NCBI GenBank assembly: GCA_029865945.1
Contig: JARXAH010000020.1
Location: 1 to 63,780 of the forward strand
Reading direction: 5' to 3'
DNA length: 63,780 nucleotides
From: Bacteriovoracaceae bacterium
GTDB taxonomy: Bacteria; Bdellovibrionota; Bacteriovoracia; Bacteriovoracales; Bacteriovoracaceae
Shown here in pieces: positions 2,948 through 50,942 of this stretch. The notes below the pieces were generated by a model. The model did not search any database. It saw nothing but the letters and a program-made list of their open reading frames with translations, and was not told the DNA's origin. Positions within the stretch are counted from its first letter, which is position 1. Every line of letters begins with the position of its first letter. The position numbers and the translations under genes are program-made.

Positions 2948-3024
2948 ACTCACGTCCCTCAATCTTCTTATCGGCATTATTTTAAAAATGCTTGAGTCAT
3001 CTAGTTTTTTTGTAGTTTTTGGTT

Positions 3025-4392
3025 ATGATGTCGTCTTTATCTCTATTTAGAATCGGGGACATTTTGAATTTTAAAGAAAACGCGCGCGCTTTAGCTAAAT
3101 TGGGTTTACCCATTGTGTTGGGGAGTATTGGACATCTACTCATGCACGTGGTTGATCTTGCCTTCCTCGGTAGATTATCGGCGATGGCCATGGGAAGTGT
3201 TGGCCCCTCCATTGCTGTTTTTAGTGCCCTCATGATGCTTGCGATTGGACTTATGGCCGGGCTTGATCCACTGCTTGCTCAAAATATTGGGGCGAATAAT
3301 AAACCTAAGGCCGATGAATATTTTCGCCAGAGTTTTTTGCTCTCCGTCGGTATTTCAGCGTTTTTTAGCTTTATCCTCTTCTTCTTTAGTCGTTCCTTAT
3401 TTGAAATCTTTAAAATTAATCCAGAATTTTTGGAAGTGGCGACCACGTTTTCTAAGATTCTTGGACTATCCATGATCCCCATGATCGTCTTTCAATGCGC
3501 GAGACAGTATTTACAATCCATCAGCAATGTAAAATTTGTGGTTTATTGTATGGTGATCGGAAACATTGTTAATTTTATTTTTAATTATTTTTTTATTTTT
3601 GGATTTTCCTCCTGGAAAGGAGGGGGAGTTGTGGGATCGGCCTGGGCAACTCTTGTCACGCGCATGATCCTCATGGTGATGATTTTATTCTACGCCCGCA
3701 AGCAATTAGATTTTAAAAAACTCCTTCCACGTTCTATCGACATTTTAAAATTAAAAGAGTTACTGCAAATTGGTATCCCGGCAGGATTTCAATTTTTTAT
3801 GGAGGTGGGAATTTTTGCCGCCACCGGACTATTCGCGTCGCGCCTCTCTCCCCAGGAATCTTCGGCCCACTTAATATCCATTAATTTTATGAGCTTGCTC
3901 TATATGATTCCCTTAGGACTTTCAAGCGCCGGCGCCGTTCTTGTCGGAAATTTAATTGGGGAAGGAAAATTGTTGCACGCAAAAAAAATGGGAACAGATG
4001 CTCTCAGTTTTTGTTGTTTGGTCGCTGGGTTCGTCGTTTTTTTTGCCTACCTATTTAAAAATTATGTCGTTGGAATTTACACCAATCAAAGCGATATCAC
4101 GGAGATTGTGTTTAACTTGCTTCCCATCGGACTGATCTTTCATCTCTTTGATGCTTTGCAAGCCGTGGCAACCGGAATTCTGCGCGGGGCCGGGAAGACA
4201 GCGATTCCGGCGGCCTTAAATTTTGTTTGCTATTGGCTGATTGGTTTGCCGTTTGCGTACTATCTGTGTTTCAACCTAAAATTTTCTCTCTACGGACTCT
4301 GGTGGGGACTCGCTTTTAGTTTATTTTTGGTTTCTCTCTTTTTAATTGCTTATTGGAAGAAATTAGAAATTAGGTCTCTCATCTCTAAATAA
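3025..4392 (+). CDS. MATE family efflux transporter (NorM/DinF-like)
   Basis: A 12-helix multidrug and toxic compound extrusion protein, which exports cationic drugs or metabolites using Na+ or H+ gradients. The N-terminus (ALAKLGLPIVLGSIGHLLMHVVDLAFLG) and the internal repeat (LLQIGIPAGFQFFMEVGIFAATGLFA) show the two-fold MATE architecture, with conserved DALQAVATGILRGAGKT in the C-half. About 455 residues, normal for the family. The start is uncertain: ATG codons at 3025 and 3028 both lack a strong ribosome binding site. The stop abuts the stop of the convergent gene with no spacer. Substrate cannot be predicted. Confidence 0.88.
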   Translation: MMSSLSLFRIGDILNFKENARALAKLGLPIVLGSIGHLLMHVVDLAFLGRLSAMAMGSVGPSIAVFSALMMLAIGLMAGLDPLLAQNIGANNKPKADEYFRQSFLLSVGISAFFSFILFFFSRSLFEIFKINPEFLEVATTFSKILGLSMIPMIVFQCARQYLQSISNVKFVVYCMVIGNIVNFIFNYFFIFGFSSWKGGGVVGSAWATLVTRMILMVMILFYARKQLDFKKLLPRSIDILKLKELLQIGIPAGFQFFMEVGIFAATGLFASRLSPQESSAHLISINFMSLLYMIPLGLSSAGAVLVGNLIGEGKLLHAKKMGTDALSFCCLVAGFVVFFAYLFKNYVVGIYTNQSDITEIVFNLLPIGLIFHLFDALQAVATGILRGAGKTAIPAALNFVCYWLIGLPFAYYLCFNLKFSLYGLWWGLAFSLFLVSLFLIAYWKKLEIRSLISK

Positions 4393-27007: not shown

Positions 27008-28333
27008 ATGAAAATTGCAGTCATCGGCAGCGGGATCTCTGGTCTTAGCGCTGCCTATTATTTATCGAACACAAAACATACTAATGGCGAGAAATTTGAG
27101 GTTCATTTATTTGAATCGAGTCCGCGAATCGGTGGGCATACGCACACTGTGGAAGTTTCAAAGTTGGAACAAAAATTTTTAGTCGATACAGGTTTTATTG
27201 TTTGCAATAATCGCAATTATCCCCATTTTTTAAAATTAATGGATGAGATTGGAATTGATCTGCAGGATTCCGAAATGAGTTTTAGTGTCAAGACACAAGA
27301 CGGATCTTTGGAATATAACGGTACTTCAATTAATAGTTTATTTTGTCAGAGAAAAAATTTTCTTAGGCCTTCGTTCTACCGAATGATCAAAGATATATTA
27401 CGTTTCAATTCTGAAGCGACTAGTTATTACGAGCAGATGCAAAACCATCCAGACAAAATTCGTCCTGCCATTACCTTAGAGCAATATTTAAAGGAAAATA
27501 ACTATTCTAAAAATTTTATAGAGTATTATATTATGCCCATGGGGGCCGCCATTTGGTCGGCCTCAAGGCGTGAAATGCGGGATTTTCCCTTAGATTTTTT
27601 CGTTCGTTTTTTTCACCATCACGGCATGCTAACCGTCAATGATCGCCCTCAATGGATGGTTTTGAAGGGAGGATCTAAAAGTTATATCCCAAAATTGTTG
27701 CAACCCTTAGAGGGCCGTGTGCACAAGGGGGCGAGCGTTTTGAAGGTTGGGAGTGAAGTTGGTGCAAAGGGAGAGAGAAATAAAAATTGGATAGAATACA
27801 AAAATGCGGCAACGAATGAAGTTAACAAAGAGTTTTTTGATCAGGTGATTTTGGCCTGTCACGGCGATGAGGCCTTGAAGATGCTGGACCATCCAACAGA
27901 AAATGAAAAAGAAATTTTGGGGGGATTTAGTTATCGTTTCAATGAAACGATTTTGCATCAAGACGAGAAGGTTATGCCCCAATCACTTTTGGGGCACGCT
28001 AGCTGGAATTATTTTATTCCCACCAAAGAGCAAGAATCCATCGCGGTTACTTATTATATGAACCGATTGCAATCCATTTCTGGGCCCGAGAAATTTTTTG
28101 TATCGCTCAACATGCGGCCATACATAGATCCTGCAAAAATTTTGAAAGTCATTGAGTACTGGCACCCGGTTTACAACCATCAAGCAGTTAAATCCCAAAC
28201 GAAATGGGGACAGATTAATGGAACGAGGGGAATTCATTATTGTGGTGCTTACTGGGGAAATGGATTTCATGAGGATGGTGTCGCGAGTGCCCTAAAAGTT
28301 GTCGATAGTATAAAGAGTCTATACCGTGTATAG
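27008..28333 (+). CDS. FAD-dependent amine-oxidase-like flavoprotein (COG2907 type)
   Basis: 441 residues. The Rossmann motif VIGSGISGLSAAYYLS starts at residue 4, with the second dinucleotide-binding element ESSPRIGGHTHTV. FLVDTGFIVCNNRNYPHFLKLMDEIGI and the C-terminal GIHYCGAYWGNGFHEDGVASA are typical of the flavoproteins encoded beside cyclopropane-fatty-acid synthases. They are thought to oxidise or otherwise handle the modified acyl chain. Seven bases separate its stop from the DUF1365 start. Confidence 0.88.
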   Translation: MKIAVIGSGISGLSAAYYLSNTKHTNGEKFEVHLFESSPRIGGHTHTVEVSKLEQKFLVDTGFIVCNNRNYPHFLKLMDEIGIDLQDSEMSFSVKTQDGSLEYNGTSINSLFCQRKNFLRPSFYRMIKDILRFNSEATSYYEQMQNHPDKIRPAITLEQYLKENNYSKNFIEYYIMPMGAAIWSASRREMRDFPLDFFVRFFHHHGMLTVNDRPQWMVLKGGSKSYIPKLLQPLEGRVHKGASVLKVGSEVGAKGERNKNWIEYKNAATNEVNKEFFDQVILACHGDEALKMLDHPTENEKEILGGFSYRFNETILHQDEKVMPQSLLGHASWNYFIPTKEQESIAVTYYMNRLQSISGPEKFFVSLNMRPYIDPAKILKVIEYWHPVYNHQAVKSQTKWGQINGTRGIHYCGAYWGNGFHEDGVASALKVVDSIKSLYRV

Positions 28334-29145: not shown

Positions 29146-30426
29146 ATGCCAACTCAACTTCTAGAAAATCGCAAATCTTTTAGTGATCTCGTATCCAATA
29201 ACTCTCTTTTGGATAAGTTGTGTAAAAATATATTACTTAAAAAATTAACTCAACTTAAGGTGGGGTTATTTACCATTAGAGATTTTACACAAGACAAAGA
29301 AGAAAAGTTTACTTTTGGTGATCCAGCGGAAAAAGATCTAGTCGCCGAAGTCATTGTTTCCAAAAGCTGCTTTTACTCTCGTTTAATTTTAGGCGGAAGC
29401 ATCGGAAATGCAGAAAGTTATGTGGATCAAGACTGGGAGACCAATGATTTAGTAACTATTGTGCGAATTTTTGTGAGAAACCGAACTCTTCTTCAATCCC
29501 TAGATTCTGGTCTAAGTAATTTGCTCATGAACCCACTCAATCGACTCTTTCACGGACTAAGAAATAATTCCGTTAAGGGGAGTAGGAAAAATATTCATGC
29601 TCACTATGATTTGGGAAATGAGTTTTTTAAATTATTTCTCGACCCAACCATGATGTATTCCAGTGGGATTTTTGAAACCCAAAACGATTCTTTGCAGACA
29701 GCATCCGAAAATAAAATTCGTATCATTTGTGAAAAGTTGAGTCTTAAGAGCAGTGATCATTTGCTAGAAATTGGGACAGGGTGGGGGAGTTTATCAATCT
29801 ACGCGGCCAAAACTTATGGTTGCAAAGTGACCACCGCCACCATTTCTCAAGAACAGTATAACTACGCACAAGAGCAAGTTAAGAAATATCAATTGGAATC
29901 TTTGGTAACCGTACTTCTAGAGGATTATCGGCATTTAGAAGGTACTTTTGATAAGTTAGTTTCTGTGGAAATGATTGAGGCCGTGGGATTAAATTATTTA
30001 GATATTTATTTTGAAAAATGCGCTCAGCTTCTTAAACCTGAGGGAATCATGGCGCTTCAGGCCATCACCATTAGAGATTCCTATTATGAAACGGCCAAAC
30101 GATCGGTGGATTTTATCCAAAGGCATATTTTTCCAGGAAGCGGAATTCCCTCGATTAGCGCCATGATGGATTCAGTAAAACGAAAAACAGATTTAGTGCT
30201 CATTCAACAAAATGATTTTGCCCAAGACTATGCAAAAACTTTGCATGAGTGGTCTAGGAATTTATCATTGAATAAAGATAAAATTGTCTCTTTAGGTTAT
30301 CCCGCTTTTTTGTATCGGATGTGGCAATTTTATTTTGCCTACTGCGAAGGTGGATTTCTCGAGCGATCTATTGGTCTGTCGCAAATGGTTTTAGTTAAAC
30401 CAAATTTTCGTGGGGAGAATTTATGA
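29146..30426 (+). CDS. cyclopropane-fatty-acid synthase family methyltransferase
   Basis: 426 residues. CFA synthases add a methylene from AdoMet across the double bond of phospholipid acyl chains. The AdoMet site LEIGTGWGSLSIYAA (Glu208), the HYDLGNEFFKLFLDPTMMYS segment, and VEMIEAVG (Glu278, matching the bicarbonate-binding acid) are visible, with GGFLERSIGLSQMVLVKP at the C-terminus. Whether it makes a cyclopropane or a methyl-branched product is not decided by sequence. Overlaps the next gene by 4 bases (ATGA). Confidence 0.9.
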   Translation: MPTQLLENRKSFSDLVSNNSLLDKLCKNILLKKLTQLKVGLFTIRDFTQDKEEKFTFGDPAEKDLVAEVIVSKSCFYSRLILGGSIGNAESYVDQDWETNDLVTIVRIFVRNRTLLQSLDSGLSNLLMNPLNRLFHGLRNNSVKGSRKNIHAHYDLGNEFFKLFLDPTMMYSSGIFETQNDSLQTASENKIRIICEKLSLKSSDHLLEIGTGWGSLSIYAAKTYGCKVTTATISQEQYNYAQEQVKKYQLESLVTVLLEDYRHLEGTFDKLVSVEMIEAVGLNYLDIYFEKCAQLLKPEGIMALQAITIRDSYYETAKRSVDFIQRHIFPGSGIPSISAMMDSVKRKTDLVLIQQNDFAQDYAKTLHEWSRNLSLNKDKIVSLGYPAFLYRMWQFYFAYCEGGFLERSIGLSQMVLVKPNFRGENL

Positions 30427-31463
30427 TTAATACACTAATTAATATGATGGAAAAAGGTCATCTTCCAGATGCTGCTATCCGTTTGGGCATTCGAAGACTT
30501 TGCCACTCCCGATTAAGTGAACTTAGTTACGATTCTTTAGATGAAAAATTGAAACGGGAACAAGATTATAAACAGTCGTTACTAAAATCTCCCCTGGCGA
30601 TTCATACCAAGTCGGCCAATGAGCAGCATTATGAGTTGCCACCTTCTTTTTTTAAAGAAGTTTTGGGGACCAATTTAAAATATAGTTCTGGATTTTGGAA
30701 TCACGACACGCGAGACCTTAGCGACGCAGAACACTTAGCATTGACGCAGACGATGGAGCGGGCCGAAATAGAAAATGGCATGCGAATTTTAGAATTGGGT
30801 TGCGGTTGGGGGTCGCTAACTTTAGCGATGGCAAAAAAATTTCCCGATTCAAAAATTGTAGCGATTTCCAATTCCAATCCGCAAAGAGAATATATTCAAT
30901 CTCAACTTGCCCATCATCATTTAAAAAACGTCATGGTGTTGACTCGAGATATTTCTCAGTTAGATAGCTTGGCACTCGAGTTTGAATCTTTTCACCGAGT
31001 GGTGAGTGTGGAGATGTTTGAGCATTTTAAAAATTATGAAATTCTTTTGCATCAAATTTCTAAGGCCCTGATGGATGGTGGAAAACTTTTTGTACATATT
31101 TTTACTCACAAAGAGCACTCTTATCCCTTCGAAGTAGAAGGGGAAGATAACTGGATGGGTAAATATTTTTTTACTGGTGGGCAAATGCCCTCGCATTACT
31201 TGCTCTACGAATTTCAAAAAGATCTTCGATTAGAAAGTTCTTGGGCCTGGAGTGGAATCCATTATCAAAAAACGGCCGAGGCGTGGCTTAAAAATATGGA
31301 TGATAAAAGAGAAATACTGATGCCTACTTTGCGCTCAGTTTACGGAGAGGATTCAGAAATTTGGTTTCAGCGCTGGCGCATTTTCTTTATGTCTTGTGGT
31401 GAGTTGTTTGGTTATCAAAGTGGTAGTCAGTGGGGCGTGTCCCATTATTTATTTAAAAAGTAG
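30423..31463 (+). CDS. second CFA/coclaurine-type SAM methyltransferase
   Basis: 346 residues with the AdoMet motif LELGCGWGSLTLAMAKK (Glu124) and VVSVEMFEHFKNYE, then the extended segment HIFTHKEHSYPFEVEGEDNWMGKYFFTGGQMPSHYLL that marks the branch related to coclaurine N-methyltransferase rather than E. coli CFA. The start overlaps the first methyltransferase by ATGA, so translation is coupled. Having two distinct members of the superfamily side by side suggests two consecutive or alternative acyl-chain methylations. Confidence 0.88.
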   Translation: MINTLINMMEKGHLPDAAIRLGIRRLCHSRLSELSYDSLDEKLKREQDYKQSLLKSPLAIHTKSANEQHYELPPSFFKEVLGTNLKYSSGFWNHDTRDLSDAEHLALTQTMERAEIENGMRILELGCGWGSLTLAMAKKFPDSKIVAISNSNPQREYIQSQLAHHHLKNVMVLTRDISQLDSLALEFESFHRVVSVEMFEHFKNYEILLHQISKALMDGGKLFVHIFTHKEHSYPFEVEGEDNWMGKYFFTGGQMPSHYLLYEFQKDLRLESSWAWSGIHYQKTAEAWLKNMDDKREILMPTLRSVYGEDSEIWFQRWRIFFMSCGELFGYQSGSQWGVSHYLFKK

Positions 31464-38230: not shown

Positions 38231-39793
38231 TTAATGAGCGTCGACGACTTTTACTTTGCGGTTTCTATTAATTTTTAAAAGAAACAGGGGAATAAAGGTA
38301 AACGCAAAAATGATAATCAAATAATAAACCAGTTGATTCGTACTCATCATAAATACTTGTTCATCCACTTTGTGTTTGATTGTTTGAATCGCGCCATGAT
38401 TGAGAGCATCCATTCCGGTAAGTGTTCCAAGTTTATGATCTAAGCTTTGATCTAGTTGTTGGAACAATTGCTGCGTTTGAGTATTTAATAAAGATACGTG
38501 AGAGCGCAAATCTAAATAATTTTGAGCACTGTTTTTAGTAAGCATCGTCGCCACGAAAGCAACTCCAATACTTCCTCCAATTTGCCTGAAGAGATTCAGT
38601 AGCCCTGATACTTGTGCGAGCGCCGCGCCCTTAAATTCACTTAGGATGCTCGAGTTGATGGGAACAAACAAAAACGCGAGAGCAAAGCCGCGCATGAAGA
38701 GCATCGCGAGAACTTCTTGGGAATTCGTGAGTGAAGAAAAATGGGTCATCATATAGAGACAAATTTCCACAGAAATGAGTCCTATAAAAATTAATATTTT
38801 GGGGTGAACGCCTTTATTCATCGCATTTCCAATAAAGGGCATCATCATCGCCGTAAGGATTGACCCGGGAATAAAAAACATTCCCGTTTGAGTGGCACTA
38901 TAGTGAAAGGAGCGCGTGAGAAAAACCGGAATAAGTAAAATAACAGAGTAGAGAAAAAATCCTAACCCCATCATGAGGCCAACACCATTAGTGACAATTC
39001 CATTTTTGAAAAGTCTAATATTAATAATCGGATTGGGAATTTTTAATTCCCACCAAATAAAAGTCGGAAGACTTACGATAAAGATGATGGAATTGAAAAT
39101 GATAGTCTTTGATGCAAACCAATCGTCGGCCTCTCCGCGCTCTAACACAAATTGTAAACAACCCACACTTAATATTAGCAGCACCAATCCAAAGACATCG
39201 AGCTTTTGATTTTGGGCCGCTTCTCCCTCTAATTTTGGACGGTCCACAATGTAGAGAGAACCCAAAAAGAAAGTGATGAGTCCAAGAGGTAAATTAATAT
39301 TAAAGATTGATCGCCAACCTAATTGATCAGTTAAATATCCTCCCATCACGGGCCCAAGTGTGGGCCCAATCATGACACTCATTCCAAAAATTGCTCCCGC
39401 AATGCCGGCCTTTTCTTTGGGAAACTGTTCGTAAATGAGCGCTTGAGATGTGGGGAGGAGCGCACCACCCATGAATCCTTGAACAATTCTAAAGAGAGTG
39501 AGTGTAAATAAGTTAGGAGCAAGTCCACAGGCAACGGAAGCTGCGGTGAACGCAAGGATGCAACTTAAATAATATTTTCTTCTGCCCACGCGTTCACTGA
39601 GCCAACTGGAAAAAGGAAGAACGATGGCATTAGCAATAGCGTAGCCAGTGATCACCATACTGATATCTTCGAGGGTCGCTCCTAAATTTCCCATCATGGT
39701 TGGAAGGGCCACGTTCACGATAGACGTATCGATGATTTCTAAGAGAGAGGCCATGACGGCCACTAAAATAATATACGGTGCGTTTTTATTCAT
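38231..39793 (-). CDS. emrB: EmrB/QacA-type (DHA2) multidrug MFS transporter
   Basis: 520 residues, 14 transmembrane helices. MLEIIDTSIVNVALPTMMGNLG-like start (LLEIIDTSIVNVALPTMMGN), SSWLSERVGRRKYY between helices 2 and 3, and motif C GMSVMIGPTLGPVMGGYLTDQLGWR mark the DHA2 drug:H+ antiporters. It works with the EmrA-type adaptor encoded five bases upstream and the TolC-like channel to export drugs across both membranes. Confidence 0.92.
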   Translation of the reverse strand: MNKNAPYIILVAVMASLLEIIDTSIVNVALPTMMGNLGATLEDISMVITGYAIANAIVLPFSSWLSERVGRRKYYLSCILAFTAASVACGLAPNLFTLTLFRIVQGFMGGALLPTSQALIYEQFPKEKAGIAGAIFGMSVMIGPTLGPVMGGYLTDQLGWRSIFNINLPLGLITFFLGSLYIVDRPKLEGEAAQNQKLDVFGLVLLILSVGCLQFVLERGEADDWFASKTIIFNSIIFIVSLPTFIWWELKIPNPIINIRLFKNGIVTNGVGLMMGLGFFLYSVILLIPVFLTRSFHYSATQTGMFFIPGSILTAMMMPFIGNAMNKGVHPKILIFIGLISVEICLYMMTHFSSLTNSQEVLAMLFMRGFALAFLFVPINSSILSEFKGAALAQVSGLLNLFRQIGGSIGVAFVATMLTKNSAQNYLDLRSHVSLLNTQTQQLFQQLDQSLDHKLGTLTGMDALNHGAIQTIKHKVDEQVFMMSTNQLVYYLIIIFAFTFIPLFLLKINRNRKVKVVDAH

Positions 39794-39798
39794 AGAAA

Positions 39799-40647
39799 CT
39801 AATTTTTTCTTATTTTTACTTCTGCCGATAGCCCCAATTTTAAAATCTCAATATCACTTTCGTTTAAGTTTTGAAGCAAAATGTGAACGGGAATTCTTTG
39901 AACAACTTTGGTAAAATTTCCCGTTGCGTTATCTGGTGGAAGAAGGCTAAAGAGGGATCCCGTCGCAGCACTAATACTTTCTACAACACCAAAATATGTT
40001 TTTCCGGAATAAGCATCTATTGATACTTCGGCCTTACTTCCCGGATGAATGGATTCAATTTGGGTTTCTTTTAAATTGGCCACCACCCATCTTTGTTTTG
40101 ATCCCACGAAGCCAAAGAGGGGAGTACCGACAGAGGCAAGTTGCCCTTCTTCAACGGATTTTTTGGCGATGAATCCATCCATCGGCGCCTTAATGAAAGT
40201 GTTTTCTAAATTAAGTTTCGCTTGTGAAACGCGAGCACTTAAAGATTCGTAACTCGCCTGACTTTCAAGCATCAATGATCTCGCTGCGTCTCTTTGTTGC
40301 TGGGAGACAGCGCCACTTGCAAAAAGAGAAATCATACGTTGGGCATTTTTTTTTGCATCCTCGAGGGTGGCCTGCTTTGAAACCATTTCTCCTTGCATTT
40401 GATCGAGTGAATATTGAAAATCTCTGGCATCAATTTCTACTAAGACATCACCTTCTTTCACTTTCTGCCCTTCTTTCACGTGCACTTTTTTGATAAAGCC
40501 ACTAACTTTGGGCGCAAGCATAAAAAAATGGCCATCAATTTGTGCATTATCCGTCGTCTCATAAAGCATGTGTTGAATAATGAAGTAGGCGCTGATAGCA
40601 CTAAAGAAAAGAAGAAGGGAGAGCATAATTTTTTTTTGTTTTTTCAT
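39799..40647 (-). CDS. emrA: EmrA/HlyD-type periplasmic adaptor
   Basis: 282 residues. One N-terminal membrane anchor, then TTDNAQIDGHFFMLAPKVSGFI, the lipoyl-like halves and the helical hairpin, followed by IKAPMDGFI and the highly conserved SAATGSLFSLLPPDNATGNFTKVVQR. It bridges the MFS pump and the outer-membrane channel. Lies between tolC-like and emrB in one operon. Confidence 0.92.
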   Translation of the reverse strand: MKKQKKIMLSLLLFFSAISAYFIIQHMLYETTDNAQIDGHFFMLAPKVSGFIKKVHVKEGQKVKEGDVLVEIDARDFQYSLDQMQGEMVSKQATLEDAKKNAQRMISLFASGAVSQQQRDAARSLMLESQASYESLSARVSQAKLNLENTFIKAPMDGFIAKKSVEEGQLASVGTPLFGFVGSKQRWVVANLKETQIESIHPGSKAEVSIDAYSGKTYFGVVESISAATGSLFSLLPPDNATGNFTKVVQRIPVHILLQNLNESDIEILKLGLSAEVKIRKN

Positions 40648-40676
40648 AGAAGTCCCGTTTTATGTAATGGCATTTT

Positions 40677-42065
40677 TTAATTGGTCGAAAAGGTATACAA
40701 CTCTCGCCCAGACGTTAATTCCAATTGGATGAGGGCATCAATGGCATTGGTGTTGGCCTCAACTTCGGCTGCTTTGGCGCGGTAGAGTTCATTTTCCGCA
40801 TCTAATAAATCTTTATTGGTTCGAGTTCCGACGCGCGCACCTGCTTTGGCAAGACGTAAACTTTCAGTAGATTTTTTTACTTCTTCGGATTTAGATTGAG
40901 AGAGTAAATGATAATATTGAAATTTGCGCTTCCATAGTTCTAAATTTTGTTTCGTTTTTGTTTGTTCTTCTTGGAGCGTGACTTGCATTTTTATTTTTTG
41001 CTGAAGAGCAATTTCTGATTTTGCCGTCGAGGCCAGGCCATCAAAAATAGTCCAAGATAAAGTGACTCCCACTTGATAAGCGTCTCTATATTTATCAAAG
41101 TCTGAGAAACTTTCTGAGCGGTTATTGTAACTTTGATATTGGCCAAATAAATAAATTCTGGGAATCCAGTGATTTTGCGCCGCCGTGTTTAGATGTTCAT
41201 AGGCCCGTAATTTGCTTTGCAAGGAGATCAAATCGAGTCGATGTAAGTGATCTTCTCGTGTCTCGTTAGATAAAGAATTTAAGATATGAGAAACGGTAGA
41301 CTGAGAAAAGTGGGGCAGATCACCTCCCAATTTTCGATCTTCGGTAGAGCGGCCCATGATTTCGGCCAACTTATTTTTCTCCATTACCACATTATCTTCG
41401 GAATTTAATACTTCTGCTTTGGCCTCACTCAATTGAACTTCTACCTTAAGCACATCAAAATTGGTGGCAGATCCTACTTTTTTGATGAGAGAAATATTTT
41501 TGAGATGATCTTCAAGGGTTATTACATTTTGTTTGGATACTTCTACAAGTTTTTCTCGTCCTATGACTTTATAAAATTGCAAAATGAGAAGCCTTGAATT
41601 TTTAAATTTACTCCACTCTAAAGAATTCATCGACGACGATTCAAAAGATTTGGCCGCGGCATAACGTTGGGATGTCATCCATCCATCAAAGATGGGAAGA
41701 GTAGCATTGAGCGAAAAACTTGAATTAGGAATAATTTGAGGAATAGTGGAAGGGGATCCTGCGATGGAAACATCTGTATAGGCATAACGTGTCTCAAAGA
41801 GGTCTGTGATGTTGAGACCTAAGGTGGGCAAAAAAGCGGCCCTGGCCTCTTTGACTTTAGCTGAATCTTCTTCGTGCCCTGCCGTTTCTTTTTTAATATC
41901 GAAAGATCCCAGATTCATTTCATTAAGCGCGGCCTTCAAATTTAAATCCGTAGCTTGGTTGTTTTGGGTCTGATTGTCTTGGGAGAATGATAGCTTTGCT
42001 GAAATGGAAGAAAATAAAAAAAAGGCAGCTATCAACTTGCAAATAAAAGAGAAAAAATATTTCAT
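40677..42065 (-). CDS. TolC family outer-membrane efflux protein
   Basis: 462 residues with a signal peptide (FICKLIAAFFLFSSISAKLSFS). Two OEP repeats are visible: ARAAFLPTLGLNITDLFETR and the second with HWIPRIYLFGQYQSYNNRSES, each ending in long coiled-coil helices (LRLAKAGARVGTRTNKDLLDAENELYRAKAAEVEAN). Trimeric channel through the outer membrane for the EmrAB pump. First gene of the efflux operon, divergent from marR. Confidence 0.92.
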   Translation of the reverse strand: MKYFFSFICKLIAAFFLFSSISAKLSFSQDNQTQNNQATDLNLKAALNEMNLGSFDIKKETAGHEEDSAKVKEARAAFLPTLGLNITDLFETRYAYTDVSIAGSPSTIPQIIPNSSFSLNATLPIFDGWMTSQRYAAAKSFESSSMNSLEWSKFKNSRLLILQFYKVIGREKLVEVSKQNVITLEDHLKNISLIKKVGSATNFDVLKVEVQLSEAKAEVLNSEDNVVMEKNKLAEIMGRSTEDRKLGGDLPHFSQSTVSHILNSLSNETREDHLHRLDLISLQSKLRAYEHLNTAAQNHWIPRIYLFGQYQSYNNRSESFSDFDKYRDAYQVGVTLSWTIFDGLASTAKSEIALQQKIKMQVTLQEEQTKTKQNLELWKRKFQYYHLLSQSKSEEVKKSTESLRLAKAGARVGTRTNKDLLDAENELYRAKAAEVEANTNAIDALIQLELTSGRELYTFSTN

Positions 42066-42167: not shown

Positions 42168-42659
42168 GTGAAAAAAAGAATAGTTAAGACAAAAAAAAGA
42201 AATCCGCAATTAGACTTAAATAAACTAAACATTGAAAGTACAAAATATCATCCCATCTTGTGCAAGTGTTTTTCCTATGTGTTTTATAAGTCTGCCATCA
42301 AAATGCGATATTTGCTTAATGATCAATTCTTAAAACATAATTTAATTCTGCCTCAACTAGGCTTACTCATGCTTTTGAAGGAACTGGGGCCAATGAGTCA
42401 AGTAGATCTAGGAATGGAACTGGACATTGACAAGACCACAATGGTCAAACTTATAGATGATCTAGAGATTAATAAATTTGTTGCAAGAACAAGCTCCCAA
42501 ACAGATCGCAGAATTAATATGCTTGAAATTACAACGATGGGACTTCGAAAATTGGAAAAAGCCTCCGGCGTTCGTCTTAATTTTGAAAAAGATTTTCTTT
42601 CCAAGCTTACTTCAATAGAAAAGAAAATTTTAATAGACTCAATTGCTAAACTTTTATAG
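42168..42659 (+). CDS. MarR family transcriptional regulator
   Basis: 163 residues. Winged-helix core: LNDQFLKHNLILPQLGLLMLLKELGPMSQVDLGMELDIDKTTMVKLIDDLEINKFVARTSSQTDRRINMLEITTMG, with the wing DRR motif typical of MarR. A Lys/Arg-rich N-terminal extension precedes it. The start is GTG. It is divergent from the efflux operon, so it likely represses it and is relieved by a ligand; the palindrome at 42097-42117 is the candidate operator. Confidence 0.92.
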   Translation: MKKRIVKTKKRNPQLDLNKLNIESTKYHPILCKCFSYVFYKSAIKMRYLLNDQFLKHNLILPQLGLLMLLKELGPMSQVDLGMELDIDKTTMVKLIDDLEINKFVARTSSQTDRRINMLEITTMGLRKLEKASGVRLNFEKDFLSKLTSIEKKILIDSIAKLL

Positions 42660-42748: not shown

Positions 42749-44188
42749 ATGGCATTGTCGATAATAGAAAATTCTATGGAAGGCCTAAGGCCACTTTGTG
42801 TGGATTTAGATAACTCCTTTATCAAAAGTGATCTATCCGTAGATGCCATCATCTACCTCATCAAAAATCGACCTTCTACTATACTTAAATTGTTCATCCT
42901 TCTCTTTAAATCCCGCTCCCTTTTAAAAAATTATTTGGCCGGCCAATACACTCCAGATGTAAAGACATTGCCGATTAATCAATCCTTAAAAACTTATATT
43001 TTGCAAGAAAAGGACAAGGGGAGAAAAATTGTACTAATTACTGGCTCTCCCCAAAACTGGGCCGAGCAAATTGCCAATGAGTATCAATGTTTCGATGAAG
43101 TCATTGGGACTGAGGGCAATATAAATTTAGTGGGAATAAAGAAAACAGAAATTTTAGTGGAAAGATTCGGCATGAATCAATTTGATTATGTTGGGGATTC
43201 CTTCGTGGATCGTCGTGTTTGGGAAAAATCAGCAATGAAGATTTTGGCCTTTCCATGGCCATTAAGTTTATTTAAAGATCAATTTGATCTAAAAATTTTT
43301 GAAAAAAAATCATTATCTACGATTATCTTTAGAATGCTTCGGTCTCATCAGTGGGTCAAAAATTTTCTTCTCTTCGTCCCCTTGCTTACGGCCCACCTTT
43401 TTTCTTTGGAGAAATGGGGGATTGCAACACTTGCCTTTGTTTCCTTTTGCTTATGTGCATCCAGTGGTTACATCATTAATGACATCCTAGATATTCACAG
43501 TGATCGCAAGCATCCGAAAAAGAAATATCGTCCCATCGCGTCAGGTGATATACCCATTCCTTATGCCTTAGGAATCTTTGTCTTTCTTTTGGGTTCTTCT
43601 TTTCTCATCGCTTCACAATTGAAACCTCTTTTTTCATTTGGACTATCCGTTTATTTTATTTTAAGTTTGCTTTATTCCTTTAAATTAAAAAATATTTTGC
43701 TACTTGATACGTTTGTCTTGGCAGGACTTTATACTTTAAGGCTTTACTGCGGGGGGATAGTCGTATCAGTGGTCGAGTCATCTTGGTTGCATATTTTTTC
43801 TGCCTTTTTTTTCCTAGCACTGGCTTTTTTAAAACGTTTTATCGAACTCAAAAGTTTTGTGGGAGGGGAAGATGATCGCCTGCCAGGACGGAGCTACCAT
43901 AAGCAAGATATGGTCACCATTTTTGCTTTAGGGATATGTAGCAGTTTTGCATCCGTCATAGTGTTCTCTTTATATATTTATCAAGATTCAACCCGTGCTT
44001 TGTACTCCTATCCAGAAATTCTTTGGGTTGTCTGTTTTTTGTTATTGATGTGGATCAACCGGATCTGGATATTTGCACAGCGTAACATTCTAGATCACGA
44101 TCCCATTAGTTTTGCCATAAAAGATAAAGTTTCATGGTTGATACTTTTTTTGGTCTCACTAACTTTAATGCTGGCAAAATATTTATGA
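42749..44188 (+). CDS. HAD phosphatase-UbiA prenyltransferase fusion (DPPR synthase-like)
   Basis: 479 residues in two parts. Residues 13-190: HAD phosphatase with VDLDNSF (Asp19, Asp21), LITGSP, Lys in KKTEIL and YVGDSFVD (Asp150). Residues about 195-479: UbiA membrane enzyme with RSHQWVKN, NDILDIHSDRKHPKKKYRPIASG (Asn244-Asp245 site) and LLDTFVLAGLYTLRLYCGG. The latter pattern is that of 5-phosphoribose:polyprenyl-phosphate transferases (Rv3806c type). The HAD part would remove the 5-phosphate from the product, as a separate phosphatase does in mycobacteria (inference). First gene of the cluster; overlaps the next by ATGA. Confidence 0.9.
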   Translation: MALSIIENSMEGLRPLCVDLDNSFIKSDLSVDAIIYLIKNRPSTILKLFILLFKSRSLLKNYLAGQYTPDVKTLPINQSLKTYILQEKDKGRKIVLITGSPQNWAEQIANEYQCFDEVIGTEGNINLVGIKKTEILVERFGMNQFDYVGDSFVDRRVWEKSAMKILAFPWPLSLFKDQFDLKIFEKKSLSTIIFRMLRSHQWVKNFLLFVPLLTAHLFSLEKWGIATLAFVSFCLCASSGYIINDILDIHSDRKHPKKKYRPIASGDIPIPYALGIFVFLLGSSFLIASQLKPLFSFGLSVYFILSLLYSFKLKNILLLDTFVLAGLYTLRLYCGGIVVSVVESSWLHIFSAFFFLALAFLKRFIELKSFVGGEDDRLPGRSYHKQDMVTIFALGICSSFASVIVFSLYIYQDSTRALYSYPEILWVVCFLLLMWINRIWIFAQRNILDHDPISFAIKDKVSWLILFLVSLTLMLAKYL

Positions 44189-45519
44189 AAAAATTGAGTT
44201 CTTCCTGGGGGAACAATTGCAAACAGATGAGTGATTGGATTTCTCTTGATTGGCAAGATGAAATCGTAGATTTTAATATATACCCAAGTTATCTCGTCCA
44301 AGGACAAGGTAGAAGTTATGGCGACGAATCATTAAACTCGCGTGGAGCTATCCTATCGACAAGAAATTTAAATAAATCGTTAGGTTTCAATTTTGAAGCA
44401 AGAACTTTTTGCGCTGAGGCCGGAATCACCTTAAGTGAAATTTTGAAAATGATCGTTCCTAAAGGATTTTTCTTGCCAGTCACACCAGGAACCAAATGGG
44501 TTTCTTTGGGCGGTGCCATTGCTAACGATGTTCATGGTAAGAATCATCACTCAAAAGGCACTTTTGGAAATTTTGTTGTCCGATTGGAGCTACTTAGATC
44601 TGACGGAAAAAAATATCTTTGTAGCGCAGATCAAAATTCCGAATACTTTTATGCAACCATAGGAGGGATGGGCCTAACCGGAATTATCCTGTGGGCCGAA
44701 TTCAGGCTCCAGCCCATCGAATCTTCAGATATCGAGTTAGAAGAGATTAAGTTCAGTAGCTATGAGGAATTTTTATCTTTAAATGAACAATCGAATAAAA
44801 ATTTTGAATATACCGTTGCCTGGTTTGATGGCCATTATTTCTTAAAATCCCAGGGAGAACTACAAGGGATTTATATGAGAGGTAATCATGGTTCTTCTCT
44901 TAAGTTAAATCAGAATTCACCTCTGCAATCACACCAGGATCCAAAATGGAGTATTCCATGCTTTTTGCCGAACTGGTTTTTAAACAAGAAATTATTGAAC
45001 GCCATGAATTTTTGTTTTTTTCACAAACGCCTAGCGAAAATCGTAAAGAAAAGAGTTCATTATGATCCCTATTTTTACCCACTGGATGGAATTAATCATT
45101 GGAACAGGGCCTATGGTGAAAAAGGTTTTTATCAACTTCAAAGCGTTTTTCCGATAAATTCGGGAAGAAAAACATTGCAAGAAATTTCAAGAACAATTAA
45201 AAAATTTGATCAAACCTCTTTTATAAATGTTTTAAAAACATTTGGTGAAATTCCGTCTCATGGCCATTTAAAATTTTCTAGGCCAGGGATTACGCTTTGT
45301 ATGGATTTCAAAAATGAGGGAATTTCCACATTAAAGATGCTTCAAGATTTAAATGAAATCACCTTCAATGCTGGAGGATGTCTTAATCCATCAAAAGATT
45401 CCACGATGAATAAAGAACAATTTAAAAAACTTTTTCAGAAAAAAGAAAGCGAAGTTAATTTTTTTAAAATGATCGACCCAAAATTTTCATCAGATTTATT
45501 TCAAAGGGTAAGGGCTTGA
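44185..45519 (+). CDS. DprE1-like FAD-linked polyprenylphosphoryl-ribose oxidase
   Basis: 444 residues, VAO/PCMH flavoprotein. QGQGRSYGDESLN and TPGTKWVSLGGAIANDVHGKNHHSKGTFGNFV form the FAD site. The C-terminal part matches mycobacterial DprE1: LKTFG, then GITLCMDF with Cys372 at the place of the Cys387 targeted by benzothiazinones, and GGCLNPSKDSTM with the catalytic Lys, ending DPKFSSDLFQRVRA. It would oxidise the ribose C2' of the lipid-linked sugar. Start 44185 overlaps the upstream stop (ATGA). Confidence 0.88.
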   Translation: MKKLSSSWGNNCKQMSDWISLDWQDEIVDFNIYPSYLVQGQGRSYGDESLNSRGAILSTRNLNKSLGFNFEARTFCAEAGITLSEILKMIVPKGFFLPVTPGTKWVSLGGAIANDVHGKNHHSKGTFGNFVVRLELLRSDGKKYLCSADQNSEYFYATIGGMGLTGIILWAEFRLQPIESSDIELEEIKFSSYEEFLSLNEQSNKNFEYTVAWFDGHYFLKSQGELQGIYMRGNHGSSLKLNQNSPLQSHQDPKWSIPCFLPNWFLNKKLLNAMNFCFFHKRLAKIVKKRVHYDPYFYPLDGINHWNRAYGEKGFYQLQSVFPINSGRKTLQEISRTIKKFDQTSFINVLKTFGEIPSHGHLKFSRPGITLCMDFKNEGISTLKMLQDLNEITFNAGGCLNPSKDSTMNKEQFKKLFQKKESEVNFFKMIDPKFSSDLFQRVRA

Positions 45520-46268
45520 AAAAAATTTTAGTCTTGGGGGCCACTTCTACTGTTGCCGTCAAGGTGATGGAATTATTCTCCTTAGAAGAAACTCATTTAT
45601 TTCTCATGGGAAGATCAAAAGAGAGACTTGAAAATATTGGCAAACATCTAAAGTGTTCTCCTACTTGGCATAAAGAATCCATCCTCGATTATCAAGTTGT
45701 TGAAAATGTTTTAATCTTTGAGAAACATCATGACTTTATTCACGAAGTAATCAAAAAGATGGGAGGTTTAGATCTCGTCTTTGTTGCCTATGGGCATTTA
45801 GGCGAACAAAAAAATAGCGAAAAAAGTGGGAGTGAATTTTTAAAAGAGATACAAGTAAATTTTTTATCGATTGCCTCTTACTTACACACAGTTGCTAATT
45901 ACTTTGAATCTCAAAAAAACGGACAGATTTGTGTCATCACCTCTGTGGCAGGGGATCGTGCTCGCAAAAGTAACTATACCTATGGCGTTGCCAAGGGGGC
46001 GCTATCGCTTTATCTCCAAGGTCTAAGAAATAGATTATTTACGTCCAACGTTTCTGTAACTGATATTAAATTAGGTTTTGTAGATACTCCTATGACTGAA
46101 AAATTGACCCAGCGATTGCTCATGGCCTCGCCAAAATATGCTGCGATGAAGATTGTTAGTGCTATTTCTCAAAAGAAAGAAATAGCTTATGTTCCGTTTT
46201 ATTGGAGATACATCATGCTGGTCATCAAAGGGATTCCAGAAAGAATATTCAAAAAATTAAATATGTAG
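45516..46268 (+). CDS. DprE2-like short-chain dehydrogenase
   Basis: 250-residue SDR with KKILVLGATSTVAVKV as the NAD(P) site, NFLSIASYL and the catalytic ITSVAGDRARKSNYTYGVAKGAL (Ser, Tyr-x3-Lys). The SVAGDRxRxSNYxYG form is the DprE2 signature. It would reduce the 2'-keto intermediate to the arabinose epimer. TTG start with AAGGG upstream; it overlaps the DprE1-like stop by four bases, so the pair is translationally coupled like dprE1-dprE2 elsewhere. Confidence 0.88.
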   Translation: MKKILVLGATSTVAVKVMELFSLEETHLFLMGRSKERLENIGKHLKCSPTWHKESILDYQVVENVLIFEKHHDFIHEVIKKMGGLDLVFVAYGHLGEQKNSEKSGSEFLKEIQVNFLSIASYLHTVANYFESQKNGQICVITSVAGDRARKSNYTYGVAKGALSLYLQGLRNRLFTSNVSVTDIKLGFVDTPMTEKLTQRLLMASPKYAAMKIVSAISQKKEIAYVPFYWRYIMLVIKGIPERIFKKLNM

Positions 46269-46276
46269 GAACAAGA

Positions 46277-49200
46277 ATGCAGCTGCTGAATAAATTTCTT
46301 TCCAGGCCAATAATTTGTCTTTCCGTTCTCGTATTTTTCGCCTTCGCTATCAGATTATTAACGATCTATCATGGAATTTCGGCGCACCCAGATGAGCGAC
46401 ACATCATCATGTCAGTCATGAATATGAATTGGGGTTGGAACGAAATGAATCCGGGTTCATTTGCTTATGGTAGTGTGCCTTTTTATTTGCTTTTTTTTGT
46501 CAAAGAATTTTTAAGAAAGTTAGGGTTTGCAATTGGTTATGATCAACTTTTTTTAGTTGGTAGATCTCTATCTGCTCTCGTGGGAAGTTGCACGCTCCTT
46601 GTCTTATTTCATCTAGCAAATAAAATGTTTGACTCTCTTAAATGGTCTTTGCTTCCTTGCGTATTATTATTTTTCAATTGGTTTTTTTTTCAGAATTCTA
46701 GATTCTATACCGTTGATATTTTTCTCACCTTTTTTGCCTTGATTTCCATATTAAAGTTTATGGATTTTATTCAAATCCCTTCTGCTAAAAATTTTTTCTT
46801 GATGGTGACTTTTTTTGCATTATCTTTTTCTTGCAAGGTGAGTGCTCTCTCCTTAGGTGTTTTTATAACCGCCACGCCAATGATCTTGTATTTACAAAAA
46901 AAAATTTCCCTTAGAAATGTGGCCATGTATTTCATTTTGTTTTCCATTCTTTCATTGCTTTTGATGGCGTGCTTACAACCTCACGCTTTTGTGAATTTTT
47001 CCCATTTCTTTTCTGATGTCATGAGAGAAAGTTCCATGGTGCGCGGAGATTATGTTCCTCCCTATACCCTACAGTATGTGGGTACGATGGCGTATTTCTA
47101 TCCGCTCAAGCAAATGGCCATTTATACTATTGGGCCACTGGTCTTTCTTTTATTATTTTTGGGAGTGTTGGAATTAATCAAAAACTATAAGCTTAAAGAA
47201 AATTTGGGAATGTATTTATTTTTTTTCTGGATGTTGGCGACTTTCTTGGTGGTTGGCGCTTTTCAAGTTAAGTTTCCTCGCTATTTACTACCCATTTATC
47301 CAGGATTGATGATTGTCGCTTCGTTAGGTATACAGTACCTCGTGTCGTGGATAAAAAAAAGAAAGTTGAAGCTTTCGCTCAAGCGAATTTTCTACGTTCT
47401 TATCTTTGCTTTAACCTTACTTCAACCTGCTCTCTATTTTCTATCTTACTTAAATATTCTCTCGGAAGAACATAGCTCCATTACGGCCAGCCTTTGGATG
47501 AAACAAAATATTAGTAGGGACGAATTGGTCCTGCAGCCTCATTGGGATGACTGGCTACCAACATCGATCCCTTTAGATTTTCATTTCAAAGTGGAAGAAT
47601 TTCCCATCTATGATGCTAGGGAAGTAAATAACTGGGGCCACCTTTCTGCTAAATTAGCGGCTTCAGACTATTTAATTTTTCCAACTCAAAAAATTTTTGA
47701 TTCCTATGTTTCTACAGGAGACGAGGACAAATTACCAAAAAATTTTATTTTAAAATTATTTTCGGGAGATCTTGGCCACTCACTTGTAAAATCAATCAAA
47801 GCAGAGTTTAGATTTTTATTTTTTAAGTTAGATTTCCAGAGCGCCGATGAAAGTCTTTCTGTTTATGATGCACCTAAAATCAGTATATTTAAAAATCAAA
47901 AAAAGCTTGATGCCGACGTCATAAAAGACTTAGTTACAAACAAATTTCATTCCACTGAAAAATATTCTGAACTTCTAAGGAAAGAAGTCAATGTGAGTCA
48001 CTTCCCTCAAACGATAAATTGGATAATTTTGTGGATGGCCATTTTATATCTGCTTCAGTTTATCTCCTTACCTCTGATAAGCTTTTTTTTGAAGTCCTTG
48101 CCGGACCAGGGTTATAGCATCAATAAAATTTTAGGGCCCACTTTTTTTTGTTATCTTGCTTGGTTACTTGTGCGCATAAATCTTCTTTCCTTTAATCGTA
48201 CTTCCTTGTGGATGTTGATCCTTGCCTTTACGATTTTAAGTTTCATTTTTGTAGCGCTTAAAAAATTTAGCTACCGTGAATTTCTTTCGAAAAATCGCCC
48301 TCATATCATCAGTATTGAAATCCTGTCGCTTTTGATCTTTGGTATTTTTTGCATCTTAAGAATGGGTTTTCCAGAAATATTTTGGAGCGAAAAACCCATG
48401 GATTTTACTTTTTTAAATTATTTTATTCGAGCAACAGATTCTCCTCTACCTCCTCAGGATCCCTGGGCCGCCGGAAGTTTAATGAAGTACTACTATTTTT
48501 CTAGTTTCTTTTTGGCCACGATTCATAAATTAATTCAATTACCCTCTACTATTGGGTTTAACTTAAGCTTAATACTTATTCCCTCCTTCTTAGGTGTGGC
48601 GGGTTACGGATTCTTAATTAACTTTACCAAAAAACGTCTCTATGCCGTTGTTGGCGCCATGGTTCCCATTTTTTACTGTAATGTTCAGTCGATCAAAGAG
48701 GCCTTCTTCGATAAAAGGGATTTGGATTTTCATCTCTTTTGGAGAACGTCGCGGCTGCTATCCGAGCCGGGATTTGTGGAATTTCCTTTGTGGTCTTTTT
48801 TATTTTCCGATGTCCATGCCCATGTGTTTGCCTTGCCTTATACAATCATTTTTATCACGTTAATATTTCATTTTTGGAAAGACGCCATTGCGGTACCTTT
48901 AAAAATTCATTTTCGACTCACTTTCATAACTGCCTTTTCCTGGTCCTGCCTAGCGTTGATTAATGGATGGGATTTTATTTTTTATTCTTTTTTAGTGGCG
49001 TTTTTGGCCATCTTTTCCTTTTTTGCCTTTGAGCAAAGTTCATTAAAAAAGAGTTTATTTTTTATTGGAAAATTTGTGATTCTTGAATTGATAGTGGTCG
49101 CCTTCATTCTCCTTTATCTAAAAGATTTATCCGGCCCAAATAAAACTCATCTCTTTATCCAGAATAATTTAAATGAACTTAATTCTATTTCTCAGATGCT

Positions 49201-50200
49201 AAAACACTATGGCCTCATCTGGATTTCTTTAATGGGAGGTTTGTTTTTACTCGTTTATAGGCGAATTAAATTTTTAAATTCCCAATTTTATTCGACCCTA
49301 GCATTTGTTTTGTTTTTGCCCTTTCTCCTCTTGTTGGTTATTTATTTTAATCATTCCTTATCGTCGATGAATTGGGGTATATTTTCTTTGGCCATTTTTC
49401 TCCTTTTCGTCTTATCCACTGCTCTCTCTCTTTATTCCAAATCTTGGACAATCATTTTTGTATTGCTGGCCACTGCCTATTCATCGCTATCTATTTTTTT
49501 TTGGGAGCAAGTGGTTTTTATTGACCGCATGAACTCTATTTTTAAGTTTCATTATCCCATTTGGATGCTGACCATGTTTTGCACACTGGCCATTATTCTC
49601 AGTTCTTCTTTTTCTCTACAAAATGAATCCATAAAAAAAATGAATTCATTTATGAAGCGCTACCGAATAACGTTTTTTTATCTTCCTCTCACCGTATCTC
49701 TTATCGCGGCGTCTATTGATATAGGAATTATGTTCAAACATAATTGGAGACCACCACTAAAGACTACGTTAGATGGGTTAGATTATTTACGGCTCGACAA
49801 CCCAGATGAATACGATTTTATTAATTGGATCAATCAAAATATAAAAGGGGTTCATGTCATTGCCGAAGCGCACGGGACATCCTACGCCGATTACAATCGC
49901 ATCTCCATGCATACTGGCCTTCCGACAGTACTGGGTTGGTGGCATCATGTGTATCAGCGTGGCCTATCAAATGAGGATGCCAATCAACGACTCCTAGATT
50001 TGAAAAATCTCTACGGCCATGGAGATGACTTAGTGAAACGATCGATTATTGATAAATATAGAATTGATTATGTGGTCATTGGATTAGTAGAACAGAGAAC
50101 TTATGGGGAAGGACTTATTAACGAATTTCTTCATAAGGAAAAATTATTTCAAATTATCTACAAAAATAAACACTACGCAATTGCAAAAGTAGTAAAATAA
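46277..50200 (+). CDS. double GT-C glycosyltransferase: PMT_2-like plus DUF2298 (YYY)
   Basis: About 1,307 residues with two multi-helix halves. Residues 1 to about 540: GT-C (PMT_2-like) with the catalytic HPDE motif (Asp39-Glu40) after helix 1, then a periplasmic segment ending VYDAPKISIFK. Residues about 590-1307: Chlor_Arch_YYY/DUF2298 with SEKPMDFTFLNYFIRA, PPQDPWAAGSLMKYYYFSSFF (YYYF 738-741) and the C-terminal VIAEAHGTSYADYNRISMHTGLPTVLGWWHH. Such proteins use polyprenyl-phosphate sugars outside the membrane. Start 46277 chosen with TAGGAA upstream; an earlier codon lies inside the SDR gene. Acceptor unknown. Confidence 0.88.
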   Translation: MQLLNKFLSRPIICLSVLVFFAFAIRLLTIYHGISAHPDERHIIMSVMNMNWGWNEMNPGSFAYGSVPFYLLFFVKEFLRKLGFAIGYDQLFLVGRSLSALVGSCTLLVLFHLANKMFDSLKWSLLPCVLLFFNWFFFQNSRFYTVDIFLTFFALISILKFMDFIQIPSAKNFFLMVTFFALSFSCKVSALSLGVFITATPMILYLQKKISLRNVAMYFILFSILSLLLMACLQPHAFVNFSHFFSDVMRESSMVRGDYVPPYTLQYVGTMAYFYPLKQMAIYTIGPLVFLLLFLGVLELIKNYKLKENLGMYLFFFWMLATFLVVGAFQVKFPRYLLPIYPGLMIVASLGIQYLVSWIKKRKLKLSLKRIFYVLIFALTLLQPALYFLSYLNILSEEHSSITASLWMKQNISRDELVLQPHWDDWLPTSIPLDFHFKVEEFPIYDAREVNNWGHLSAKLAASDYLIFPTQKIFDSYVSTGDEDKLPKNFILKLFSGDLGHSLVKSIKAEFRFLFFKLDFQSADESLSVYDAPKISIFKNQKKLDADVIKDLVTNKFHSTEKYSELLRKEVNVSHFPQTINWIILWMAILYLLQFISLPLISFFLKSLPDQGYSINKILGPTFFCYLAWLLVRINLLSFNRTSLWMLILAFTILSFIFVALKKFSYREFLSKNRPHIISIEILSLLIFGIFCILRMGFPEIFWSEKPMDFTFLNYFIRATDSPLPPQDPWAAGSLMKYYYFSSFFLATIHKLIQLPSTIGFNLSLILIPSFLGVAGYGFLINFTKKRLYAVVGAMVPIFYCNVQSIKEAFFDKRDLDFHLFWRTSRLLSEPGFVEFPLWSFLFSDVHAHVFALPYTIIFITLIFHFWKDAIAVPLKIHFRLTFITAFSWSCLALINGWDFIFYSFLVAFLAIFSFFAFEQSSLKKSLFFIGKFVILELIVVAFILLYLKDLSGPNKTHLFIQNNLNELNSISQMLKHYGLIWISLMGGLFLLVYRRIKFLNSQFYSTLAFVLFLPFLLLLVIYFNHSLSSMNWGIFSLAIFLLFVLSTALSLYSKSWTIIFVLLATAYSSLSIFFWEQVVFIDRMNSIFKFHYPIWMLTMFCTLAIILSSSFSLQNESIKKMNSFMKRYRITFFYLPLTVSLIAASIDIGIMFKHNWRPPLKTTLDGLDYLRLDNPDEYDFINWINQNIKGVHVIAEAHGTSYADYNRISMHTGLPTVLGWWHHVYQRGLSNEDANQRLLDLKNLYGHGDDLVKRSIIDKYRIDYVVIGLVEQRTYGEGLINEFLHKEKLFQIIYKNKHYAIAKVVK

Positions 50201-50204
50201 GTTC

Positions 50205-50942
50205 ATGACTCATGAAAGAAATAAAATACTGTTAATTATTCCTTGCTTCAATGAAGAAAAGAGACTTAATTTAGAAAAATTTGCACACCTGGAAAGTGTA
50301 GATTTTTATTTCGTCAATGACTGTTCCACAGATGAAACGGGAACATTATTACAAAATTTTGTCCAACAGTTTCCTCAACATCGCCTGCTGCAGTCGATGA
50401 AAAATGTAGGTAAAGGTGAGTCCATACGTAGCGCAGTTTTAAAATTATCAGATAAGGATCTAAGTCACTATACCTGGTTTGGATTTTGGGATGCAGACTT
50501 GGCCACACCTTTTTTTGAGCTCGAAAATATGCTGAAGTATGAAAAAATATATTCTTCACCTGCGAAAAGCATTCAAGGAATTTTTGGAAGTAGAGTGATT
50601 CGTCTTGGAAGTAACATTCAGCGTACATTTCATCGCAAGTTGCTGGGTCTTTTGTTTAAACAAGTGGTGGAAATTTTACTGAAAGTAAGATCTTACGACA
50701 CCCAGTGCGGAGCAAAATTATTCCACACTAGCATCGTGCGAGAAGTTTTTTTGGAACCCTTTATTTCACGCTGGGTTTTTGATTTAGAATTGATTATGAG
50801 AACGAGGGATCATTACACGGTGGAGTACCCACTCATCGAGTGGATTGATGTCCCAGGAAGTAAGTTAAAAATATTTCGCGAGGCCTTCCGAATTGCTAGT
50901 GATATTTACAAAATCAAACGGGCCTACTCCCAGTTAAATTAA
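50205..50942 (+). CDS. GT2 polyprenyl-phosphate sugar synthase (ALG5/DPM1-like)
   Basis: 245 residues, GT-A fold: LLIIPCFNEEKRL, VNDCSTDETGTLL, NVGKGESIRSAVL, WDADLATPFFELENML (the D-x-D site) and SYDTQCGAKLFHTSIVREVF, RWVFDLELIMR. This is the dolichyl-phosphate beta-glucosyl/mannosyl transferase group without C-terminal membrane helices. It would charge polyprenyl phosphate with a hexose for an extracytoplasmic GT-C enzyme such as the preceding one. Four bases separate it from the GT-C gene. Sugar not predictable. Confidence 0.88.
   Translation: MTHERNKILLIIPCFNEEKRLNLEKFAHLESVDFYFVNDCSTDETGTLLQNFVQQFPQHRLLQSMKNVGKGESIRSAVLKLSDKDLSHYTWFGFWDADLATPFFELENMLKYEKIYSSPAKSIQGIFGSRVIRLGSNIQRTFHRKLLGLLFKQVVEILLKVRSYDTQCGAKLFHTSIVREVFLEPFISRWVFDLELIMRTRDHYTVEYPLIEWIDVPGSKLKIFREAFRIASDIYKIKRAYSQLN

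Follow-up and report, generated by a model that had tools for sequence, protein, structure and literature searches.

We describe five co-directional open reading frames (ORFs; g1 to g5) at positions 42749-50942 on the + strand of a 63,780-nucleotide stretch of Bacteriovoracaceae bacterium DNA (contig JARXAH010000020.1 of assembly GCA_029865945.1; hereafter the window), which belongs to a genome of 3.08 Mb in 103 contigs with a completeness of 96%. The place, strand, content and order of the genes proposed in an earlier note on this DNA were borne out by the ORF calls and the family matches, and chance ORFs were ruled out by the family scores. It is likely that these genes produce lipid-linked D-arabinofuranose and use it to decorate the cell surface. 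The donor-making part follows a route with precedent in many Gram-negative bacteria and is a further case of a published pentofuranose scheme (PMC11127046), from which the window differs in its terminal protein and in the missing linked flippase. The most unusual element of the operon is g4, in which a PMT_2-like half is fused to a DUF2298 half and for which the genomes searched contained no full-length relative. The features are as follows.

42749..44188, + strand: g1, predicted HAD (PRP) phosphatase fused to a UbiA-type phosphoribosyltransferase (PPPRS), 479 amino acids (aa), ATG start
44185..45519, + strand: g2, predicted DprE1-like FAD oxidase of polyprenyl-phosphate-ribose, 444 aa, ATG start
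45298..45300, + strand: codon of Cys372 of g2, which aligns with the benzothiazinone-target cysteine
45516..46268, + strand: g3, DprE2-like short-chain dehydrogenase/reductase (SDR), predicted reductase, 250 aa, TTG start
46277..50200, + strand: g4, membrane protein with a PMT_2/TIGR03663-like N half and a DUF2298 (Chlor_Arch_YYY) C half, putative terminal glycosyltransferase, 1307 aa, ATG start
50205..50942, + strand: g5, soluble family 2 glycosyltransferase (GT2) that lacks a membrane anchor, predicted polyprenyl-phosphate-hexose synthase, 245 aa, ATG start

The start of g2 at 44134 in the ORF list was simply the most upstream candidate, and the ATG at 44185 was adopted. With this start g1 and g2 share an ATGA overlap at 44185-44188, and g2 and g3 a TTGA overlap at 45516-45519. 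The whole set had been described as tightly overlapping, which fits these two junctions but not the following ones, as g3 and g4 are separated by 8 nt and g4 and g5 by 4 nt. The G+C content of the operon (35.4-37.4%, compared to 38.8% in the window) hints at a foreign origin weakly at most. Promoter and terminator scans gave nothing above chance level.

For g1, a UbiA-type synthase fused to a HAD phosphatase is supported by the score against NCBIfam PRK08238 (HAD-UbiA; 511 bits, cut-off 351), a match that spans residues 10-477 and covers both domains, by the nearest PDB entry, the M. tuberculosis DPPR synthase (8j8j, 8e-26), and by the catalytic motifs. The HAD nucleophile Asp, the UbiA NDxxDxxxD motif and the R..E of loop IV are all present, and among 15 sequences of the phylum the HAD residues D19/D21, the UbiA residues N244, D245, D248 and D252, and R363 were invariant and E366 near-invariant. 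Their spacing, compared as such and not through an alignment with ORF15, matches that of N247, D248, D251, D255, R366 and E369 in Citrobacter ORF15, residues that have been mutated in an enzyme shown to form polyprenyl-phosphate-ribose with farnesyl phosphate as the acceptor (PMC11127046). At L117 and L075/L081 (G051) the g1 homologue lies in two ORFs, matched with internal stops, beside open g2 and g3 homologues, and appears to be a decayed or misassembled synthase.

In the PDB, g2 matched DprE1 at 6e-62 and the next family, cytokinin dehydrogenase, at 2e-8, a gap of >50 orders of magnitude, on which the alternative of a generic FAD sugar oxidase with no kinship to DprE1 was rejected. The residues of g2 were compared in an alignment of the window protein, 50 homologues and M. 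smegmatis DprE1, using the M. tuberculosis numbering, which we take to be that of M. smegmatis minus 7. At Y60, G117, H132, K134, W230, Q334, Q336, K367 and K418 g2 is identical to DprE1. The benzothiazinone cysteine that had been reported as retained is real, as Cys372 aligns with Cys394 of M. smegmatis DprE1 (Cys387 in M. tuberculosis). However, be it kept or regained, it does not characterise the group, because at this position 46 of the 51 Gram-negative sequences have Ala, 3 have Thr and just 2 have Cys. The second sequence with Cys at this position is a DprE1-like protein from another family of the phylum (L083:8027-9322), and both this protein and g2 of the window have unusually long branches in the g2 tree. 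That most of the sampled Gram-negative DprE1 homologues carry Ala where benzothiazinones hit the cysteine is relevant to comparisons of these enzymes as drug targets.

The DprE2-like reductase proposed for g3 agrees with its nearest solved SDR, DprE2 (21gq_C, 1.6e-22), which was the sole PDB match at 1e-15, and with the invariant SDR catalytic residues S143, Y156 and K160. In its tree g3 grouped with DprE2-like proteins of the same phylum with 82% support; with a single non-DprE2 SDR among its sequences, the tree shows where g3 stands among related proteins and is no hard test of the clade. A quick tree search, in which deep branches were poorly resolved, placed g2 among DprE1 homologues, with actinobacterial DprE1 nested within the tree. 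Neither the oxidase nor the reductase was thus found outside the DprE1 and DprE2 clades.

Within the phylum, g1 was found in 25 and g2 in 19 of the 241 genomes, and the window was the only case of g2 within its own family. The g2-g3 pair occurred in three other families (f3, f6 and f11); g1 immediately preceded the pair in most f6 loci and in part of the f3 and f11 loci. Among 80 named loci with HAD-UbiA relatives, 47 had g2 and 40 an adjacent g2-g3 pair, shares that are not a census as the loci were the best matches to the window query. Named loci with the oxidase-reductase pair belonged to Pseudomonadota, Acidobacteriota, Myxococcota, KSB1, Ignavibacteria and Chlorobiota, among others, and in some of those inspected g1 and g2 flanked a GtrA gene, or a PMT_2 protein stood downstream. 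The survey of gene order in related genomes, suggested earlier as a check, shows that the order g1-g2-g3 recurs, but neither g4 nor g5 was present in any of the 80 named loci. The occurrence outside Actinobacteria, previously considered noteworthy, is already published (PMC11127046) and common across phyla.

The C half of g4 matches DUF2298 (PF10060; 1.5e-49, 172 bits against a cut-off of 27.8), and g4 also passes TIGR03662 (321 bits, cut-off 300). This half keeps the residues that are invariant in 12 family relatives (EKxMD, YYY, ExPxW, DxHxH and DxxNxxFK, among others), and the conserved acidic and His residues of DUF2298 are intact. The N half matches PMT_2 (PF13231; 7.4e-6) with 28.2 bits, marginally above the cut-off of 26.1, and over residues 16-365 it has a weak match to TIGR03663 (17.4 bits, E 0.0018, cut-off 126). 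The protein has about 20 hydrophobic segments and is the product of the sole PMT_2 gene and sole DUF2298 gene of the genome. Whereas the DUF2298/TIGR03662 homologues in the family of the window are separate proteins with lengths of about 570-760 aa, in g4 the domain is fused behind a second membrane half of 574 aa and lies in a pentose operon. No full-length g4 fusion was found elsewhere among the 241 phylum genomes, 129 family genomes and a plasmid collection, and such fusions may be present in genomes beyond those searched. A double GT-C transferase had been suggested for g4, and the evidence bears this out in part at most: the N half is weakly PMT_2-like, and for the DUF2298 half neither other GT-C profiles nor PDB entries gave a match that could be detected. 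Comparison of DUF2298 to GT22 and PMT_2 sets with hhalign and BLASTP of the two g4 halves gave no convincing homology, and PDB searches with the DUF2298 profile, g4 and g5 gave no match. Scans of viral contigs had no match to the g4 halves and one distant DprE1-like match. Literature searches on DUF2298, and on arabinofuranose or DprE1 in Bdellovibrio, found nothing useful.

The DUF2298 family is also present in Haloferax and Methanosarcina. In the family of the window, stand-alone DUF2298 genes (L104, L106-L109, L111-L115 and others) have a conserved neighbourhood with what by sequence are apparent dnaE and pyrD genes, which suggests that the stand-alone form has a core function with no link to O-antigen loci.

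The last gene, g5, matches the GT2 family (PF00535, 2.8e-10). It has this domain in common with the polyprenyl-phosphate-hexose synthases of the GtrB/Alg5 type but lacks the membrane anchor of GtrB, as no hydrophobic segment was found. Homologues of g5 were present in 61 of the 241 phylum genomes, in three of them (G157, G176, G212) about 6-16 kb from g1-g2-g3, and several lay next to membrane proteins of the GT22 or DUF6056 type or in their vicinity. The GT2 domain and the homologues near GT-C-type genes suggest that g5 is a polyprenyl-phosphate-hexose synthase serving a membrane transferase. The DUF6056 proteins near g5-type GT2 genes (L224, L234 and L236, and by similarity L230 and L233) are 459-492 aa long and may themselves be lipid-sugar-dependent transferases.

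The pathway that had been assigned to the first enzymes is supported by the database matches, by the conservation of catalytic residues and by the order of the genes, and from these we infer the activities of the proteins and the identity of the sugar. The reading of g1-g3 as a polyprenyl-phosphoribose synthase with a built-in phosphatase, followed by epimerisation of the DprE1/DprE2 type, is well supported. After g1 has made the lipid-linked ribose, g2 would oxidise its C2 and g3 would reduce the 2-keto intermediate to polyprenyl-phosphate-arabinofuranose on the cytoplasmic face. An unlinked flippase would then export the product, and g4, probably the terminal transferase, would move the sugar outside the inner membrane onto a glycan, lipid or protein. 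The second half of g4, or a separate enzyme, may take the polyprenyl-phosphate-hexose from g5. If g4 is the arabinosyltransferase, it would connect the uncharacterised DUF2298 with one particular lipid-linked sugar and so open the function of this family to experiment. It is even conceivable, although rather speculative, that g4 is a single-chain transferase with two donors, one half using the polyprenyl-phosphate-arabinofuranose of g1-g3 and the other the polyprenyl-phosphate-hexose of g5, so that two sugars would be added in order to one acceptor; if true, this would be the first function for DUF2298.

The scheme resembles the mycobacterial decaprenyl-phosphate-arabinose pathway (Rv3806c, Rv3807c, DprE1, DprE2, Rv3789 and Emb/Aft) in its homologous PPPRS, oxidase and reductase and in the order of the pathway. 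In the window, however, the HAD phosphatase is fused to the PPPRS rather than being a separate Rv3807c, pocket residues of the oxidase differ, and the genome has no GtrA that was found and the operon no Emb-type transferase. The HAD-UbiA type of synthase has been characterised in Citrobacter, where C. youngae has a three-component system of ORF15 (PRP-PPPRS), ORF14 (MATE) and ORF12 (GT136) (PMC11127046). The window shares with it the N-terminal HAD fused to the UbiA PPPRS, a donor on polyprenyl phosphate and a membrane transferase expected outside, but adds DprE1 and DprE2 genes, has no flippase in the operon and has the PMT_2-like/DUF2298 fusion as terminal protein. In the Rhizobium laguerreae plasmid pWSM1455_2 (L208) a cluster annotated as UbiA-GtrA-FAD oxidase-SDR-hypothetical protein has the three core genes in the order of the window. 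Its large hypothetical protein (519 aa) stands in the place of the transferase, as known by position and not by a direct comparison with g4, and the cluster differs in carrying GtrA and in having no adjacent GT2. The donor-making half of the window operon extends a widespread pentofuranose pathway by one species.

Several observations weigh against arabinofuranose as the product or g4 as its transferase. Both g2 and g3 fall below the cut-offs of the equivalog families: g2 scores 308 bits against NF053785 (mycobacterial DprE1, cut-off 500), and g3 scores 140 bits against NF053786 (DprE2, cut-off 250) and more, 236 bits, against PRK07102, also under its cut-off. The other Gram-negative homologues tested likewise fall short of NF053785 and NF053786, with 310-406 bits for g2-type proteins and 172-195 bits for g3 relatives. 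In the pocket of g2, Ser228 is changed to Val, Tyr314 to Phe and Asn385 to Thr, which leaves room for another sugar or lipid. For g4, the PMT_2 match is marginal, the DUF2298 half is of no known function, and single-sequence structure models of the halves (mean pLDDT 43.8 and 40.8) were too poor for use. Finally, a search of the genome for GtrA found none, and the operon has no flippase gene of the GtrA or MATE type beside the synthase.

The changed pocket, together with the long end branches of g2 and g3 of the window, would fit a pathway with the same first steps and another pentofuranose or a mixture as product, either because g2 and g3 act on a differing stereocentre or because only ribofuranose is transferred in practice. 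Such a variation is known from Citrobacter O2, where a different SDR leads to xylofuranose (PMC11127046). Yet that system uses one GalE-like SDR and not an FAD oxidase with an SDR, the published survey links DprE1/DprE2 homologues to Gram-negative polysaccharides that contain arabinofuranose (PMC11127046), and the pocket changes are those of the Gram-negative group as a whole, with Val at 228 in all, Thr at 385 in most and mostly Phe at 314. We therefore consider another pentose improbable. Nearly as improbable, though slightly less so, is that g1-g3 form the arabinose module whereas g4 and g5 are a separate downstream polyprenyl-phosphate-hexose system, with the arabinosyltransferase elsewhere in the genome. 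The g5 homologues beside or near GT22 or DUF6056 genes without g1-g3, and the stand-alone DUF2298 genes near dnaE and pyrD, away from any g1-g3 set, are in line with such a split, but the spacing of 8 and 4 nt is tight, the genome has no PMT_2 gene besides g4, and other g1-g3 operons also have a large protein next in line.

The missing GtrA could be explained if g4 were partly a lipid-sugar flippase or an aid to one, as TIGR03663, the weak match of its N half, is named 'flippase activity-associated protein Agl23'. We regard this as very unlikely: the score is far under the cut-off and the name of a model is no proof of transport, the same half matches PMT_2 too, and the genome has other transporters. 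For lipid-linked arabinofuranose made by g1-g3 and transferred by g4, the flippase and the acceptor must come from elsewhere, and the earlier suggestion of a self-contained system is not supported. A MatE gene in the window (3019-4392, 192 bits) is a conceivable unlinked flippase candidate; another MatE gene lies on contig 23 and a Polysacc_synt_3 gene on contig 37, and no evidence ties any of these to the operon.

A MarR gene (Pfam; 42168-42659, + strand) lies 89 nt upstream of g1 and is probably unrelated to the operon. It is divergent from a set at 38231-42065 on the - strand which, assigned by sequence only, encodes an MFS transporter, a membrane-fusion protein and a TolC-like outer membrane protein and is a probable drug-efflux operon adjoining the arabinose operon. 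Farther away in the window, two neighbouring methyltransferases of the CMAS type (cyclopropane synthetase-like) at 29146-31463 are located downstream of an amine-oxidase-like flavoprotein at 27008.

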